Below are positions 44,705 through 51,613 of a stretch of 64,000 nt of DNA, one piece after another. The stretch's first letter is position 1, and the number at the start of each line of letters is the position of its first letter. The position numbers and the translations under genes were made by a program. Origin of the DNA: Nitrososphaerota archaeon (GTDB lineage Archaea; Thermoproteota; Nitrososphaeria; Nitrososphaerales; Gagatemarchaeaceae); NCBI GenBank assembly GCA_016200045.1, contig JACQFN010000016.1:62001-126000 (forward strand), in the 5' to 3' direction. The notes beneath the pieces are model-generated. The model had not been told where the DNA came from. It saw nothing but the letters and a program-made list of their open reading frames with translations, and did not search any database.

Positions 44705-47700
44705 CTACTCACACTTGCTGTAGCCGCAGTTGCCGCACTTGTAACATCCGTTCTCAAAGATGAGCGCATTCTCGTGACAGTCGGGACAGGTCCCTCCCAT
44801 GGATGTGCGCCTCGTCTGAGATTGCTCCATAATGTTGTCCGACTGCTTTACCACCTGGTTCATTGTCAGGAGCTCGAGCGCCTTCGCGACAGCGTCGGGG
44901 ATCGACATCAGCTGTATCCCCTCGTCCCATGAGACGTACTTCCCCTTGATCCCCTTGAGAGTGGATATCGCGCTCTTCACGTCCCCGCCGTGCTGAAGGT
45001 ATAGGCTGATGAGCCTCCCGAGCGCCTCTGCGTCTGCTTTCTCGTCCCCACCGGACTTGCCGAGGGTGACGAACACCTCCTTCAGCTCCCCGTTGACCAG
45101 GTTCCCCGTGAGGTAGAGCCCCCCCTGCGGCAGCTTGAGCTTCAGGGTCCTCCCCTCCATCATCTTGGGCCTTTCGAAGGGGGCCTTCGCCGCCTGCGTC
45201 TTCTTTACGACCTTCTCCGTCTCGAGGATACCTTCTCTGCTCCCCTCCCGGTAGACGGTTATCCCCTTGCACCCCATCTTCCACGCGAGCATGTAGATCC
45301 GCTCGACCTCTTCGGTGGTAATCTCCTGGGGGAGGTTGACCGTGCTCGAGATGGCGGTGTCGATGTGCTTCTGAATCGTCGCCTGCATCTTGACCCTCAT
45401 CTCCGGCTTGATCTGGTGGGACGTAACGAAATAATTCGGGAGCTGCCCCTCGTCCCTCACACCCGTGACCCCCATGAAGTCCTTCACCAGCGGGTGGAAG
45501 ACCTTGAACTCCCCCTCGCTGAGGGACTTGCTCCGCCTTGTGTATGACAGAGCGAAGACCGGTTCCACCCCGCTCGAGCATCCAGCGAGGATCGACCCGG
45601 AACCCACCGGCGGGACCGTCGTCACGGCCGCATTCCTGATCCCCTGAGCCCTTATCTTGTCCTTTACCCTCTCGTCGAGCCTCGAGATGAACGGCTGGGC
45701 GAGATGCTTCTCAGCGTCGAAAGCGGGGAAGCTCCCCTTCTCCTTCCCGAGTTCGCTCGAGTAGTCATAAATCACATTCTTGACCCTCTCGAACAGGTGG
45801 TCCACGAACCCGATTGTGGAGTCTTCGTCGTACTTCAGGCCCAGCTTGATTAGCATGTCTCCCAGGCCCGTTATCCCGACCCCGATTCTCCTGCTCCAGA
45901 GGGACGCTTCCTTCTGCTGCGGGAGGGGGTGCCTGTCCGCGTTGTAGTCCAGGACGTTGTCCAGGAACCTGACCGCGTACTGCGTCGCCTTCGTGAGCGA
46001 TTCCCAGTCTATGCTCGCGCGCTCAGTGAACGGCTCCTTCACGAAAGCGCTGAGGTTGACAGACCCAAGGCAGCAGCACCCGTAGCTTTCCAGAGTTTGT
46101 TCCGAACAGCCCCTGCTGACATAGCCGTTTGTAATCCACGTGTCTGTCGCCTCTTCGAAGAGATCGTAGACCGTCTCCTTCCCTAGATACGAGATGCTCT
46201 TGATTCTTGTCGAATCGGAGTCAGACCCGAAGGTCATGTCTCTGACCCTCTCCAACCTCGCCTGCTTGGCGGGATGCGACAACCGGAACATCTCGGAGAA
46301 CTTCTTCAGGTCGCTTCCATAGAGAGTCAGGTGATAGGCATCGTGTTTGAGGACTACCTCTCTACCTAGAATCTTGGTCGCTTTGCCCTTGCGGGCACTC
46401 CTGTATATCTTAGGGCTCATACCGTAGAACTGCAAGACCAGCCTTGTTTGCTCGAGCAGCCTTTTGCTTGTGGACGAGAGTCTCATACATGGATTCGATG
46501 GGTTCAGATCCACGTCCCCATCGGTCGAAAAGAGACCATCCATCAGCCCTGCGTGAAACTCAATGTTGCTGTTGATGTATTCCATCGGCATCTCCTTCTG
46601 TGAAGCCTTTGCCGGCCGCAGAAGAGTGCGCTGCGTGACGAAGTCCGTCCCATCCTTGTAGAGATAGACGTAAGCCGAGTTGCTCCTTGTGTCGGGAGAG
46701 ACTGCTATCCTGGGTGCTATCACCGAGAACTTCTCGACCAGGCAAGTGTTCCACTCTGTCTCCCTCTTGTCGGACGCCACCTTCGCCTGCCCGTTTCTGA
46801 CCACAGCCTCAGAGATGCTCCCGTCCCCCAGCAGGGCTCCGATCATGAACCCGAAGTCCCTGTCCTGAATCCCGTGAGTTTCGACCTCTTCTGTGGGAGG
46901 CGCATTTACCTTTCCCACCCTGACGAGGTCTCCGACCCGGAGCTCGCCGACCCTCCGTTCCTTACCCCAGAACTTGTCGAACTTCTGGGCGTCCCTCGAC
47001 TGGATAGGCCTGGTGTGGAAGACATGACCGGGCGTTACATCTATCGATCCCCCGTCCGTGAATTCCACGTGATACACGTCGACCCCTTCAGTCCTTTCCA
47101 CTTTGGTTATCGGCCTGACTGAGCCGTATGCTGTGACAATCTGGTCTCCTTCTGCAAGGGAATCAGTCCGTCGCCAGCCGCTTGGGGTGCGGGTCAGTGT
47201 CTCCCCCGTCACACACGGGTTGACCCCCTGGACCTCCATCCCGTTGTACTCCGTGGTCGACTCCCTCTTCATGGCGTCCCAGAATATCACCCCCGGCTCT
47301 GCCGACTCCCACGCCCCGCGTATCAGGGACTTCCAGACCTCCCTGGCCCTCACAGTCCTGACCAGCTCGGCTTTCTCGTTCTTGAACCTGAGGAGGAAGT
47401 CTCCGTCCGACTCCACAGCTCTCATGAAGTCATCGGTGATCTTCACCGAGATGTTGGCGTAGTTCACTCTCTTCAGGTCGCGCTTGACGTTGATGAAGTC
47501 CATGACATCCGGGTGGTCCACCCTGATGGTGATCATCAGTGCTCCGCGCCTGCCCGCCTGTCCGATGGTCCCGGTCGTCGTGGAAAGGAGTTCCATGAAT
47601 GAGACCGAGCCCGAGCTGTAGATGGCAGAGTTGTTCACCGGCGCCCCCCTGGGCCTCAGGACGGAGATGTCTGTCCCGACCCCTCCCCCGAAGCTGTATG

Positions 47701-49216
47701 TCCGCGCCGCCTCCTTGCACCAGTCGAATATCGCCTCGATCGAGTCTTCTCTTATCTTGAAGAAGTAACAGTTCCCTGTGAGGATTCCGTTACCTATGGT
47801 GAACGTGTGTGTCTCTGGTTCGGTGCAACAGTAGACTTCTCTTTCCTCGTTCAGAGGGATGACTTCCTTGACCCTCACATGGTTTCCGACCTTCACAGTG
47901 ATTCTTCTCTTGGAGAATCTCTCTCTGTGGTCGCCTCTCAACAGGTCTGCCTCATTGATTGAGAATTTCGAGATGTTGAAGCGATAGAGGGGTGCTTCCC
48001 TTCCATCATACGGGTCCCTTTCTCTCGACCTGAAGATCTTGTTGGGAAACATCCCTACCCTCACAAGTTGTTCCCGAATCACTTTCAGGTCAGCTAGATT
48101 GGCCTGGTCTACCCCGACCTGGCCATTGGACGAGCAGTGGCCCTCGGTCGCGATGAGGCCCGCTATGAACCCATACCAGTATGAAGCAGAGACCTCGGTT
48201 GGCGGAATCTCCTTGAGATTGAACTTGGACCTGATGCCGCCAACGTGTATTGCTCCTTTGAGCGCCGGGTTCTTCCCTGAATACTCCACAAAGTGCCCGT
48301 ACCCTCTCAGGTGGGCGACCAGATCCCTGTCTCCACCGAAGAGGTAAACTCCGTAGGTGGTAGCCGCGGAATTCCTGGAGCCATCTCCATAGATTACTCC
48401 ATGGACGACGCCATCTCTGAATTCTTGGTTGGTCTCTGGCCTATCAGGCAGGGAGACGAAGAGACTCTTTCCCTCCAGAGAGACTGTCGTGACCTTCGAT
48501 GGCCTCTGCTTGCTGTGGTAGAATATCGGCCACTCATGATTGGCGGTCGCGACGAACTCGTCCCCTGTCCTGAGGACGACTCTGTAGATTGGCTGTCTTC
48601 CGTACGAGCTGAACTTTACCAGCCTCCAACCGCTCTTGGTCAGGATTTCTACCTCCTTGCCCACTATTTCTCTTATCCTGGCTTTGCTCACCGTGGTTGC
48701 CACCTGCTTGGATTCGGAAATCAACGAGTTGTTGCGGCCCAGCAGCTGTCTTGTGGTCTCAACATTTTCTCTCACGATGACCTCAGTGTCTCCGTCGAGG
48801 CAGTTGAGCAGCGTAGATTTTCTCGGCTGCCCCGCACCGAAGAGTATCCTCCCTCCTGGAACGAACCGGTAGTCCTGAAGCAGCCAGTAGAACTTCGCCG
48901 TCCACTCCTTCCTCTTCTCATCATCTTTCTCAGGGATAGCGAGCTCCTTCGCGACCCTTCGCCAAAGGTCGTCGGGGACCTTCTCCACCTGCAGGCCGTG
49001 CTGGTCTCTCAGGGCGTACTTTTCGTAGAAGACTCTTGCGCGCAGTTCATCTCCTCCGAACGCGGCAAGGGTCTCTGACGGGAGCTTGACCTCTCCCTTC
49101 GGTCCTCCGACATTCGGAGAGTCGCGTGGTTGTTCAACTATTGACGTCATAACGTTAGTCTGGACCCCATCGTCCGCAATATATATTTCACCCTTGGCTG
49201 ATTCAAAGTTCACCAT
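44705..49216 (-). CDS. nrdJ: Adenosylcobalamin-dependent (class II) ribonucleotide reductase with two inteins
   Basis: The 1503-residue precursor carries about 790 residues of class II reductase: LLQDYRFVPGGRILFGAG, NCYFFKIREDSIEAIFDW, SFGGGVGTDISVLRPRGAPV, the active-site NPCSEQ, GCCCLGSVNLSAF, and ILAGCSSGVEPVFALSYTRR. The zinc-ribbon tail is CPDCHENALIFENGCYKCGNCGYSKC. It reduces ribonucleotides using B12. Inteins split it exactly before two redox cysteines: the N-terminal one (NCYF) and the thiyl-radical Cys (NPC). The regulator-like NrdD homologue lies 87 bp upstream on the same strand. Confidence 0.96.
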   Translation of the reverse strand: MVNFESAKGEIYIADDGVQTNVMTSIVEQPRDSPNVGGPKGEVKLPSETLAAFGGDELRARVFYEKYALRDQHGLQVEKVPDDLWRRVAKELAIPEKDDEKRKEWTAKFYWLLQDYRFVPGGRILFGAGQPRKSTLLNCLDGDTEVIVRENVETTRQLLGRNNSLISESKQVATTVSKARIREIVGKEVEILTKSGWRLVKFSSYGRQPIYRVVLRTGDEFVATANHEWPIFYHSKQRPSKVTTVSLEGKSLFVSLPDRPETNQEFRDGVVHGVIYGDGSRNSAATTYGVYLFGGDRDLVAHLRGYGHFVEYSGKNPALKGAIHVGGIRSKFNLKEIPPTEVSASYWYGFIAGLIATEGHCSSNGQVGVDQANLADLKVIREQLVRVGMFPNKIFRSRERDPYDGREAPLYRFNISKFSINEADLLRGDHRERFSKRRITVKVGNHVRVKEVIPLNEEREVYCCTEPETHTFTIGNGILTGNCYFFKIREDSIEAIFDWCKEAARTYSFGGGVGTDISVLRPRGAPVNNSAIYSSGSVSFMELLSTTTGTIGQAGRRGALMITIRVDHPDVMDFINVKRDLKRVNYANISVKITDDFMRAVESDGDFLLRFKNEKAELVRTVRAREVWKSLIRGAWESAEPGVIFWDAMKRESTTEYNGMEVQGVNPCVTGETLTRTPSGWRRTDSLAEGDQIVTAYGSVRPITKVERTEGVDVYHVEFTDGGSIDVTPGHVFHTRPIQSRDAQKFDKFWGKERRVGELRVGDLVRVGKVNAPPTEEVETHGIQDRDFGFMIGALLGDGSISEAVVRNGQAKVASDKRETEWNTCLVEKFSVIAPRIAVSPDTRSNSAYVYLYKDGTDFVTQRTLLRPAKASQKEMPMEYINSNIEFHAGLMDGLFSTDGDVDLNPSNPCMRLSSTSKRLLEQTRLVLQFYGMSPKIYRSARKGKATKILGREVVLKHDAYHLTLYGSDLKKFSEMFRLSHPAKQARLERVRDMTFGSDSDSTRIKSISYLGKETVYDLFEEATDTWITNGYVSRGCSEQTLESYGCCCLGSVNLSAFVKEPFTERASIDWESLTKATQYAVRFLDNVLDYNADRHPLPQQKEASLWSRRIGVGITGLGDMLIKLGLKYDEDSTIGFVDHLFERVKNVIYDYSSELGKEKGSFPAFDAEKHLAQPFISRLDERVKDKIRAQGIRNAAVTTVPPVGSGSILAGCSSGVEPVFALSYTRRSKSLSEGEFKVFHPLVKDFMGVTGVRDEGQLPNYFVTSHQIKPEMRVKMQATIQKHIDTAISSTVNLPQEITTEEVERIYMLAWKMGCKGITVYREGSREGILETEKVVKKTQAAKAPFERPKMMEGRTLKLKLPQGGLYLTGNLVNGELKEVFVTLGKSGGDEKADAEALGRLISLYLQHGGDVKSAISTLKGIKGKYVSWDEGIQLMSIPDAVAKALELLTMNQVVKQSDNIMEQSQTRRTSMGGTCPDCHENALIFENGCYKCGNCGYSKCE
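46109..47215 (-). other. Intein 2 of NrdJ (369 residues), non-canonical C-terminus
   Basis: It starts with Cys (CVTGETLTRTPSGW, block A), has block B SIDVTPGHVFHTRP, and LAGLIDADG motifs FMIGALLGDGSIS and LMDGLFSTDGDVD. It is inserted at NP|C, so the +1 residue is the thiyl-radical Cys of CSEQ. The C-terminal end reads DTWITNGYVSRG before CSEQ: the usual final Asn is Gly, the penultimate residue is Arg, and the block F His is Asp. Asn cyclisation is therefore impossible by the standard mechanism. Confidence 0.88.
47771..48802 (-). other. Intein 1 of NrdJ (344 residues)
   Basis: It starts with Cys (CLDGDTEVIVREN), has block B EFVATANHEWPIFY, LAGLIDADG motifs VHGVIYGDGSRNS and FIAGLIATEGHCSS, and ends HTFTIGNGILTGN before extein CYFF. 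The final Asn and the +1 Cys are present; the penultimate residue is Gly instead of His, which is tolerated in some inteins. It is inserted before the N-terminal redox-active Cys of the reductase. Confidence 0.93.
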
Positions 49217-49303
49217 CCAGCAGCGTTTAGAATGAGCACCCCTGCGACATGAGACATGCCCCTGTGAACTCTTTTTGACAGGAACTCTATGCGATTAGCC
49301 CTG

Positions 49304-51391
49304 TCAGACGGCCGTCGAATATTGGACGCTGGCCACTGATTTGCAGCGTCTGCACCTGGTCGCGTTCTGCGGGAGCTTGGCGCCGCAGTTCTTGCAGACG
49401 GAAATGAGCCTGTCCACCTTGAAGTAAGGAATCTTGGACGTCGCGTTCAGGATCAGGTTGTATATCCCCCTAACCTCCTCGGCCGAGCCCTCCAGGGTCA
49501 CCGACAGTCCTCCGTGCAGTCCGGCCGAAAGCTTGGTGATGTAGTCTGTCTTTTCCAGGTTCTCGAGGTCGGCGAGCGTGAGCCTCGGAGCCTGCGTGTA
49601 GGCCCCCTTCTGCAAGGGCTGTAGGTTCGCCTTCCCATACTTCTCCGAGTCGAGCGTGGCCAGCCTCTGCGCTCCGTCCAGGTCCAGCATGGCCACCCCG
49701 AGCCTGTCGATCTTCGTGGATTTCTCGGTCGCTTTCTCCGTCGCCGTCTCAATGATCTTCAGGGCCAGCTCGTTCCTCGACCCAGTGGTCGGGTCCCGTA
49801 TCAGGCTCGCCAAGGTTTCGTCGAGGCCCACTAGGTTCATCATGAGCGGCATGGTGTCCGAGGTGACGGCGTCCGACCCCGCTGCGAGGGCCGGCAGAAG
49901 TCCTCTTTTCAGGGTCCTTTCGATGAGCCTCCTCCGGGTCGAGAGGGCGTCGGCGGCGGTCCCGATGAGAAGGGCGAGCTTCGCCCTGAAGTACGTCTCG
50001 TCCTGGTTGGAGTCGTAGGCGAGCCGCGGAAGGTTCAGGCTCAGCCCGTGAAGCACGTTGACGTTGTCCGCCTGCGACTCCTGGGTCAAGATGTTGGCGT
50101 TGAGGCCCAGGAAGCTCCTTCTCTGGTCCGACGAGAAGAAGGCTATCCTCCCGCCGTTGAATATTATCGACGCGGCGTCCTTGAGCGTCTTCGTCTCATC
50201 GACACGGTTAGGCTTCGCCAGAAGCAGTCTCACGTCGGGCCTCGGGGTCTCCTCGACGAAGCTCCTGTAGGCGCCTAGGGCAGCGTCAAGGGTCTTGTCC
50301 ATGACCTCTCTTCCGACCTCGTCGTGCCTGTACGGGTTGAGTTCTAGACTGATGGACGGGAGGGTCGAACCTGCGATGGGCGAAGTCAGCGTCTCTAGGA
50401 ATCGGAGGAGGACTGATTCGAGTTCCCTCTTCCCCCTGGACTTGCAGAACGGAGCGAGGTACTGCAGGAAATTCTTGAACGTAACCTCGTCGGACGCCTC
50501 CCGCGACAGCATCGACGAAAGGTCCAGGACGATGTTCAGCGCCCTCTCCGCGTTCTCCGGGCTCGGGATCATGGAAGCGTTGACAATCCTCCCCCGCGGG
50601 TTCAGCCCCGCGCTCCTGACCGAGAGCAGGTCTACGAAGACCGTGTCCGGTGTGAGCCCCCACGAACCAGCGTTTGTTATGTGGATGTCCCCCGACAGGT
50701 GCGCGTCCGCGACGTCCCGAGGGAGCTGCTCCAGCAGGAGGTACTCTGAGAACACCTGCCTCCCGGTCTGGCGGACCAGGGACTCCACGTTCCCTCCGTC
50801 GTCCCCGGCCTTCCCGAGGAGCGCCGTGACGTCGTAGATTGGCATCCCGAGCCTGGTCAGCTTGTGCCTGTACTCCTCCATGCTGTGCTCGACGAGAAGC
50901 GCGTTCACTATCTCCCTGATCAGAGGGGCGGTCAGGTACTGCGTCTGGAACTTGTACAGCCTCGACTCTGTCTCGCTCGTGATTTTCTGTGCAAGCTCTA
51001 CCGGCATTCCTGCCTCTTTCACCAGCGACTGGAGGATCTTGTTTGCGTTGAACTCCTCCATCGTCTGATGAGACGTCCTGACGTAGAGCTTACCGCTCTC
51101 GACCAGGGACTGTTCCTCGATCTGCCTGGTCAGGTTGAGGACGAGCCGCCCCAGGTTGGTCACCGTGTACTTCCTCTCCTGCCTGTTCAGCTGTATCAGC
51201 AACTGCTTGACGAGCTTTCTCAGGTGGTAGGCGAATTTCCCCGATTCTTTCTTTGACTTGAACCCCGCGAGGGTCTTCAGCGCGCTGTAGGTCAGGGGGC
51301 CCTTGATGTTCAGTATGCGGAGAATCTCCAAGCGCTGAGGGGAAGCAATGACCGAATAGATCGTCTTGACCCTTCTAGGAGCTGCCTGCAA
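49304..51391 (-). CDS. HTH + ATP-cone + inactive NrdD-like protein, putative nucleotide-sensing regulator
   Basis: The 695-residue protein has an ArsR-like helix-turn-helix (SPQRLEILRILNIKGPLTYSALKTL, about residues 15-90) and an ATP-cone (TMEEFNANKILQSLVKEAG to YRHKLTRLGMPIYDV). A long NrdD-like domain follows, with HLSGDIHITNAGSWGLTPDTVF, GLSLNLPRLAYDS and NLVGLDETLASLI. It ends in a zinc ribbon, CKNCGAKL...CRRC. The NrdD catalytic Cys pair (CCRL) is absent and there is no C-terminal glycyl-radical motif. TTG 51391 follows a TATA-like gttaaata at about 51417-51424; GTG 51427 is possible. It sits just upstream of nrdJ. Confidence 0.85.
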   Translation of the reverse strand: MQAAPRRVKTIYSVIASPQRLEILRILNIKGPLTYSALKTLAGFKSKKESGKFAYHLRKLVKQLLIQLNRQERKYTVTNLGRLVLNLTRQIEEQSLVESGKLYVRTSHQTMEEFNANKILQSLVKEAGMPVELAQKITSETESRLYKFQTQYLTAPLIREIVNALLVEHSMEEYRHKLTRLGMPIYDVTALLGKAGDDGGNVESLVRQTGRQVFSEYLLLEQLPRDVADAHLSGDIHITNAGSWGLTPDTVFVDLLSVRSAGLNPRGRIVNASMIPSPENAERALNIVLDLSSMLSREASDEVTFKNFLQYLAPFCKSRGKRELESVLLRFLETLTSPIAGSTLPSISLELNPYRHDEVGREVMDKTLDAALGAYRSFVEETPRPDVRLLLAKPNRVDETKTLKDAASIIFNGGRIAFFSSDQRRSFLGLNANILTQESQADNVNVLHGLSLNLPRLAYDSNQDETYFRAKLALLIGTAADALSTRRRLIERTLKRGLLPALAAGSDAVTSDTMPLMMNLVGLDETLASLIRDPTTGSRNELALKIIETATEKATEKSTKIDRLGVAMLDLDGAQRLATLDSEKYGKANLQPLQKGAYTQAPRLTLADLENLEKTDYITKLSAGLHGGLSVTLEGSAEEVRGIYNLILNATSKIPYFKVDRLISVCKNCGAKLPQNATRCRRCKSVASVQYSTAV

Positions 51392-51463
51392 GATGGCCGA
51401 CGCGTCGGGGTCAATTGTATTTAACACTATGATAACAGAAGTTAATCAGGAGTCATGCAAGGA

Positions 51464-51585
51464 TGGGGTCGCCCGGATTTGAACCGGGGGTCTTCAGCGC
51501 TCTTGCGCAGGGTCCCAAGGCTGAAAGCCTAGACCAGACTAGCCCCTCGAAGGCACGCGCCCTGCAAGGCCTAGCCGACGACCCA
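51464..51585 (-). tRNA. tRNA-Pro (TGG) with two introns
   Basis: Exons are 51585-51571, 51538-51514 and 51499-51464 (76 nt joined); anticodon stem TCAGC/GCTGA, anticodon TGG, T-arm CCCGG/CCGGG. Intron 2 (14 nt, 51513-51500, at 37/38) has central helix CTTG/CAAG with bulges GGA and AGC. Intron 1 (32 nt, 51570-51539) lies in the D-loop after position 15: inner stem CCTTG/CGAGG, central helix GGCT/GGCT with two G-T pairs, bulges AGG and AGT. The first acceptor pair is T1-C72, a mismatch. No CCA is encoded. Confidence 0.9.
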
Positions 51586-51613
51586 ACAAAGTCCGCTTCT
51601 TCGTCTGACGTAG

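Follow-up and report, generated by a model that had tools for sequence, protein, structure and literature searches.

A catalytically dead class III ribonucleotide reductase fused to a winged helix and an ATP-cone: a candidate regulator of ribonucleotide reductase genes in Nitrososphaerales

Archaea of the order Nitrososphaerales encode a protein in which an ArsR-type winged helix-turn-helix (HTH) and an ATP-cone are fused to a catalytically dead class III ribonucleotide reductase (RNR), NrdD. We propose that this protein, here called the regulator, is an ATP/dATP-responsive, autoregulated transcription factor dedicated to RNR genes, and we give this reading a probability of roughly 0.8, with DNA binding and the ligand both inferred. 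Its gene was studied in a Nitrososphaerota archaeon (GCA_016200045.1, contig JACQFN010000016.1), within a stretch of 64,000 nt that is referred to as the window. The coding sequence (49304..51391, minus strand, as for all features given below) comprises 695 residues and precedes nrdJ, a class II RNR gene. A further new element is the palindrome GTCAA-N6-TTNAC, which overlies the regulator's own TATA box and recurs in the interval between its gene and nrdJ. With predicted sites at two promoters, the regulator is a testable candidate for how archaea without NrdR adjust their dNTP supply. The ammonia oxidisers, in which it is also found, are one of the most abundant archaeal groups. If our reading holds, the protein is moreover a clear case of an enzyme that has come to regulate the very enzyme by which it was functionally replaced.

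Domain architecture and loss of catalysis

The domains that the earlier note had called from the sequence, an ArsR-like HTH, an ATP-cone and a full NrdD-like domain, were confirmed by Pfam and by the folds of AlphaFold2 models compared with the PDB. The winged helix (51098..51376) gives a DUF7347/HTH_20 match in the full-length protein and passes the HTH_20 cut-off once the N-domain is scanned by itself; HTH matches were obtained for 18/18 family members scanned. Failure of structure prediction to yield an HTH would have counted against the proposal, but a winged helix is predicted, and the N-domain model (pLDDT 89.4 in isolation, 80.6 for the full-length regulator) matches ArsR/MarR repressors in the PDB with a probability of 1.00, although with E values of only 1e-3 to 1e-2. 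The recognition helix, KKESGKFAYHLRKLVK (51206..51253), corresponds to helix 59-74 of the AlphaFold2 model. The ATP-cone (50870..51085, residues 115-186) scores 31.3 bits against a cut-off of 25.8 (PF03477). It is followed by the dead NrdD-type barrel (49412..50788), which is covered by an NRDD match over residues 214-701 (PF13597, 102.8 bits against a cut-off of 26.2), and by a C-terminal zinc ribbon of the form CxxC...CxxC (49337..49402, residues 676-697), after which there is no glycyl-radical loop. Class III RNRs are the first PDB matches of the whole model (best E 2e-20), while the score against TIGR02487, 93.5, stays far below the cut-off of 326. The Pfam residue numbers count from a GTG at 51427, the start chosen by the ORF finder. 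This codon falls in the promoter of the regulator gene, and the TTG at 51391, the start taken in the earlier note, fits the family as the true one. Several ammonia-oxidiser copies (L089, L092, L093, L101-L105) carry a long Asp-rich N-terminal extension ahead of the winged helix. Directly upstream of the regulator gene lies a tRNA-like sequence, GGGTCG...CCGGTTCAAATCCGGGCGACCC (51460-51590), which is probably intron-split and is detected neither by ARAGORN nor, at the gathering threshold, by Rfam; its 3' end is also present upstream of the regulator gene in relatives.

Catalytic residues were compared in an alignment of 33 regulators and seven true NrdDs (E. coli, Methanomethylovorans and five Thermoproteota). 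At the positions equivalent to T4 C79, C290 and G580, the catalytic residues are present in 7/7 true NrdDs and in 0/33 regulators; all four zinc cysteines and the NLPR asparagine (N311 equivalent) are kept in all regulators. The claim that both catalytic cysteines and the glycyl-radical site had been lost from the window protein thus extends to all 33, and an intact cysteine pair, which would have refuted it, is seen in no homologue, none having a cysteine at either site. The earlier description of a lost CCRL motif needs a correction, in that the motif around C290 reads QCCRL or GCRSF in true NrdDs and QRRSFLG in the window's regulator. The radical loop is wholly missing from the Nitrososphaeria copies. 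Many copies from other classes retain a relic of the radical domain after the ribbon, with another residue at the glycine position. The stages that remain visible are catalytic loss, the relic in distant copies and full removal in Nitrososphaerales.

A glycyl-radical domain encoded separately would likewise have spoken against a dead enzyme. The source organism's own genome yielded no second NRDD protein and seven Nitrososphaerales genomes searched yielded no Gly_radical domain, and NrdG2 (TIGR02495) came over the cut-off in no genome lacking a true NrdD, the bacterial type (TIGR02491) being outside the search. Where the regulator stands alone, neither NrdR nor NrdG was found. A class III reductase that still works or died recently, with its glycyl radical provided in trans, would account for NrdD homology over the full length and for the kept zinc site. 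However, the lost cysteine pair and the missing Gly_radical and NrdG2 rule out an active enzyme complemented in this way, and copies are dead throughout a phylum while the winged helix is strongly conserved, so that this explanation has virtually no chance of being correct. Because of this uniform loss and the conserved winged helix, the regulator is neither active nor a decaying pseudogene. Its reductase activity is excluded on sequence grounds.

Conservation, descent and neighbouring reductase genes

Across the order, mean identity amounts to 0.76 in the winged helix, 0.70 in the ATP-cone and 0.34 in the barrel, and the finger-loop region (0.22) is among the least conserved parts. In the recognition helix, 16 of 17 columns (residues 56-72) are invariant. 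The cone residues E124, N127 and T166 are conserved, and by inspection of the sequence alone we take them to correspond to E. coli NrdA E15, N18 and T55. Owing to this pattern, we favour DNA binding together with sensing by the ATP-cone, the barrel acting as scaffold. The earlier note had inferred a regulator of nrdJ that reads dNTP levels, perhaps through the substrate and effector sites of the dead NrdD. Control of nrdJ is supported by linkage, winged helix and operator candidate, while sensing through the dead sites, situated in the least conserved part of the protein, is the weakest element of that idea, conservation pointing to the cone. It is nevertheless conceivable that the protein is a transcription factor in which the old substrate and specificity sites of the barrel read particular NTPs or dNTPs, as the fold is kept and conservation extends to some motifs of the barrel (GDIH..W..PD, 0.63; NLPR, 0.65, with the N311 equivalent invariant; DETYFR, 0.56). 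These motifs may be structural, however, and in view of the low identity of barrel and finger-loop region compared with cone and winged helix we regard this variant as unlikely. With sensing by the cone as the preferred reading, residual nucleotide binding by the barrel remains possible.

The regulator is near-universal in Nitrososphaerales and present across the Thermoproteota. The protein was matched in 56 of the 61 nearest genomes, in a few weakly, and an NRDD match is present in 136 of the 151 genomes of the order. Only one strong match to a true NrdD was obtained in the order, a fragment in G050 whose contig is short and may represent contamination. Because the regulators match NRDD models, an oxygen-sensitive class III enzyme can be wrongly attributed to aerobes that do not possess one. 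A profile search of the phylum Thermoproteota showed that many further genomes encode homologues over the full length, with the winged helix. Searches of phages, plasmids and viral contigs yielded nothing apart from one plasmid-borne methanogen protein, which is a true NrdD. In the tree, the true NrdDs lie on one side of a branch with support 100/98, and the Nitrososphaeria regulators form one clade (100/100) among other regulators. A single origin of the regulator is compatible with this tree and is its simplest reading. An active NrdD already fused to a winged helix was considered as an intermediate and discarded, as none of the true NrdDs fetched and examined carries a winged helix.

The presumed target, nrdJ (44705..49150), was identified by Pfam and profile matches as a class II, B12-dependent RNR. 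Its Hint/LAGLIDADG matches represent two inteins; many close relatives have none, and inteins thus come and go within the genus. The start of nrdJ is most likely the ATG at 49150, because the N-terminus MTSIVEQPRDSP and a TATA box about 27 bp upstream of this codon (AAATATATATTG, 49177..49188) are conserved, which would widen the gap between the two genes from the 87 bp given before to about 153 bp. Wherever a Nitrososphaerales locus extends far enough to be informative, a class II reductase lies directly downstream of the regulator gene and in the same orientation, and lack of a conserved nrdJ linkage, a further ground for refutation, can be set aside. These reductases are of two types, one sharing about 60-90% and the other about 33% identity with the window's NrdJ. 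Among 20 distant loci, a true nrdD follows the regulator gene on the same strand in five and nrdJ adjoins it in two; 13 have no RNR gene within about 4.5 kb. The partner is class II or class III by lineage and therefore changes class while the regulator stays. In several distant Thermoproteota (L109, L112, L113, L115, L116, L117) the gene of the homologue frequently converges on pyrB or is located beside pyrI, genes of aspartate carbamoyltransferase and thus another link to a nucleotide pathway.

Such constant pairing with reductases, and the absence of an ATP-cone match from the window's NrdJ itself, could also reflect regulation at the protein level, in which the protein would adjust the activity of the class II reductase by binding to it, while the winged helix serves for protein contact or autoregulation only. 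We consider this very improbable, since the switch between class II and class III neighbours is hard to reconcile with a maintained protein contact, the ammonia-oxidiser NrdJ carries a cone-like KRDGR motif of its own, and the near-invariant recognition helix and the palindromes at both promoters point to DNA. Transcriptional control can be extended to a wider proposal. The regulators may constitute a phylum-wide archaeal family of dead class III RNRs, in which cone and barrel jointly sense dNTPs and which control nrdD in anaerobes or nrdJ after the move to oxygen, having outlived the replacement of their target as an archaeal counterpart of NrdR. This remains tentative, and we would put it somewhat below an even chance.

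Relation to known regulators and enzymes

NrdR senses nucleotides via its cone and is rare in archaea (PMC9110341). Our search of 61 Nitrososphaerales genomes, in which no NrdR (TIGR00244) came over the cut-off, agrees with this rarity. NrdR and the regulator both fuse an ATP-cone to a DNA-binding module and are tied to RNR genes, in the case of NrdR of any class; NrdR often controls its own gene, and we propose the same for the regulator. However, NrdR is a small protein with a zinc ribbon ahead of the cone, while the regulator combines an ArsR-type winged helix with a dead NrdD in about 700 residues. The cone is the only common part, the DNA-binding domains are unrelated, and the regulator fails the test for NrdR, as no zinc ribbon directly precedes its cone and TIGR00244 does not come over cut-off. 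Repression of RNR transcription by NrdR relies on its binding to paired NrdR boxes; the operator candidate of the regulator, inferred from sequence alone, is GTCAA-N6-TTGAC. With NrdD (PF13597, TIGR02487) the regulator shares the ATP-cone, the barrel fold, the NLPR motif and the zinc ribbon, but it lacks the catalytic cysteine pair, the glycyl radical and an NrdG partner and has the winged helix in addition. It descends from the NrdD family yet fails the catalytic definition of NrdD. ArsR/MarR winged-helix regulators (PF12840, PF24038) have the N-domain fold and the family match in common with it; the regulator differs by its fusion to an ATP-cone and a metabolic pseudoenzyme and by a recognition helix sequence particular to the family.

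Transcription factors derived from enzymes exist, such as GabR, PutA and BirA, and they resemble the regulator in principle, as they too join an enzyme fold to a domain that binds DNA. To our knowledge, none is built on a ribonucleotide reductase. The earlier note knew of no described system of this form, and our search of the open literature found no description of the regulator or of an RNR-based transcription factor either; subscription papers lay outside this search and priority is not certain.

Palindromic sites and the proposed mechanism

The palindrome GTCAA-N6-TTNAC was first noticed when intergenic regions between regulator and nrdJ were compared side by side. In the window, one copy, GTTAAATACAATTGAC (51410..51425), spans the regulator's own TATA box (TTAAATAC, 51417-51424) in a promoter that is probably leaderless, and a second, GTCAAAAAGAGTTCAC (49264..49279), is located between the two genes, with the nrdJ TATA box about 76 bp further downstream; there are no binding data for either. 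Of 32 intergenic regions, 14 contain the exact palindrome, as do 11 of the 33 upstream regions, compared with 0.1 and 0.05 expected from first-order shuffles; the counts are not fully independent because some of the loci are closely related. When every 5-mer dyad with a gap of 3-9 bases was ranked de novo in a less redundant set, GTCAA-N6 came first. Genome-wide the palindrome is rare. Our tally for 20 family genomes gives 91 distinct sites, 31 of them at the regulator locus, which accounts for 2/2 sites in each of the genomes G026 and G014 and for 2/3 in the closed genome G005. As a conserved operator candidate it lends independent support to the regulator reading, with DNA binding inferred. 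In ammonia oxidisers, a palindrome with a 5-base gap (N5) occurs upstream of the nrdJ TATA box in 15 of 33 cases against 0.7 expected, when at least 9 of 10 matches are required. The exact operator is absent from G003 and G012 of the genus and from the ammonia oxidisers' own regulator promoter, and no operator of the GTCAA-N6 type was seen in distant anaerobes.

A wider regulon was considered and rejected. The other sites in related genomes lie in a dispersed repeat of about 100 bp, inside ORFs and at unrelated places, and no target gene common to them was found. The repeat, which contains a perfect GTCAA-N6-TTGAC in several family genomes (L145, L161, L162, L163, L164), may be a miniature mobile element.

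The palindrome could also belong to a different factor, the regulator protein then controlling something else. Lineages that keep the protein without the sites would fit such an arrangement, as would the further genomic copies, several of them in the dispersed repeat. It is improbable, however, given that the sites lie at either end of the regulator gene and are scarce elsewhere, and that a site placed over a gene's own TATA box usually indicates autoregulation. In the mechanism that we prefer, the regulator itself would bind as a dimer, inferred from the dimeric nature of the NrdD fold family, and would put its two winged helices on GTCAA-N6-TTGAC. Because the first site covers the regulator's TATA box, occupancy would repress the regulator gene, and the second site would provide control over the cell's only reductase. 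The sign of this control can only be inferred, as the distance of the second site from the nrdJ TATA box is no less compatible with activation or looping than with repression. The ATP-cone would read ATP versus dATP, as it does in NrdR and RNRs, and the nucleotide at the cone would change the oligomeric state or the DNA affinity of the protein, so that reductase output is matched to dNTP supply. The barrel would serve as dimer scaffold and as link between cone and DNA-binding domain, without performing reduction. Against this explanation it must be said that there is no experiment, that the exact operator is missing from some lineages, and that most of the distant loci mentioned above (13/20) are without a nearby RNR gene. 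Ammonia oxidisers (L082-L106) share the sequence AGTCAYAAGTCTTATTTAC over a TATA-like box upstream of the regulator gene, a possible alternative operator with a different half-site spacing.
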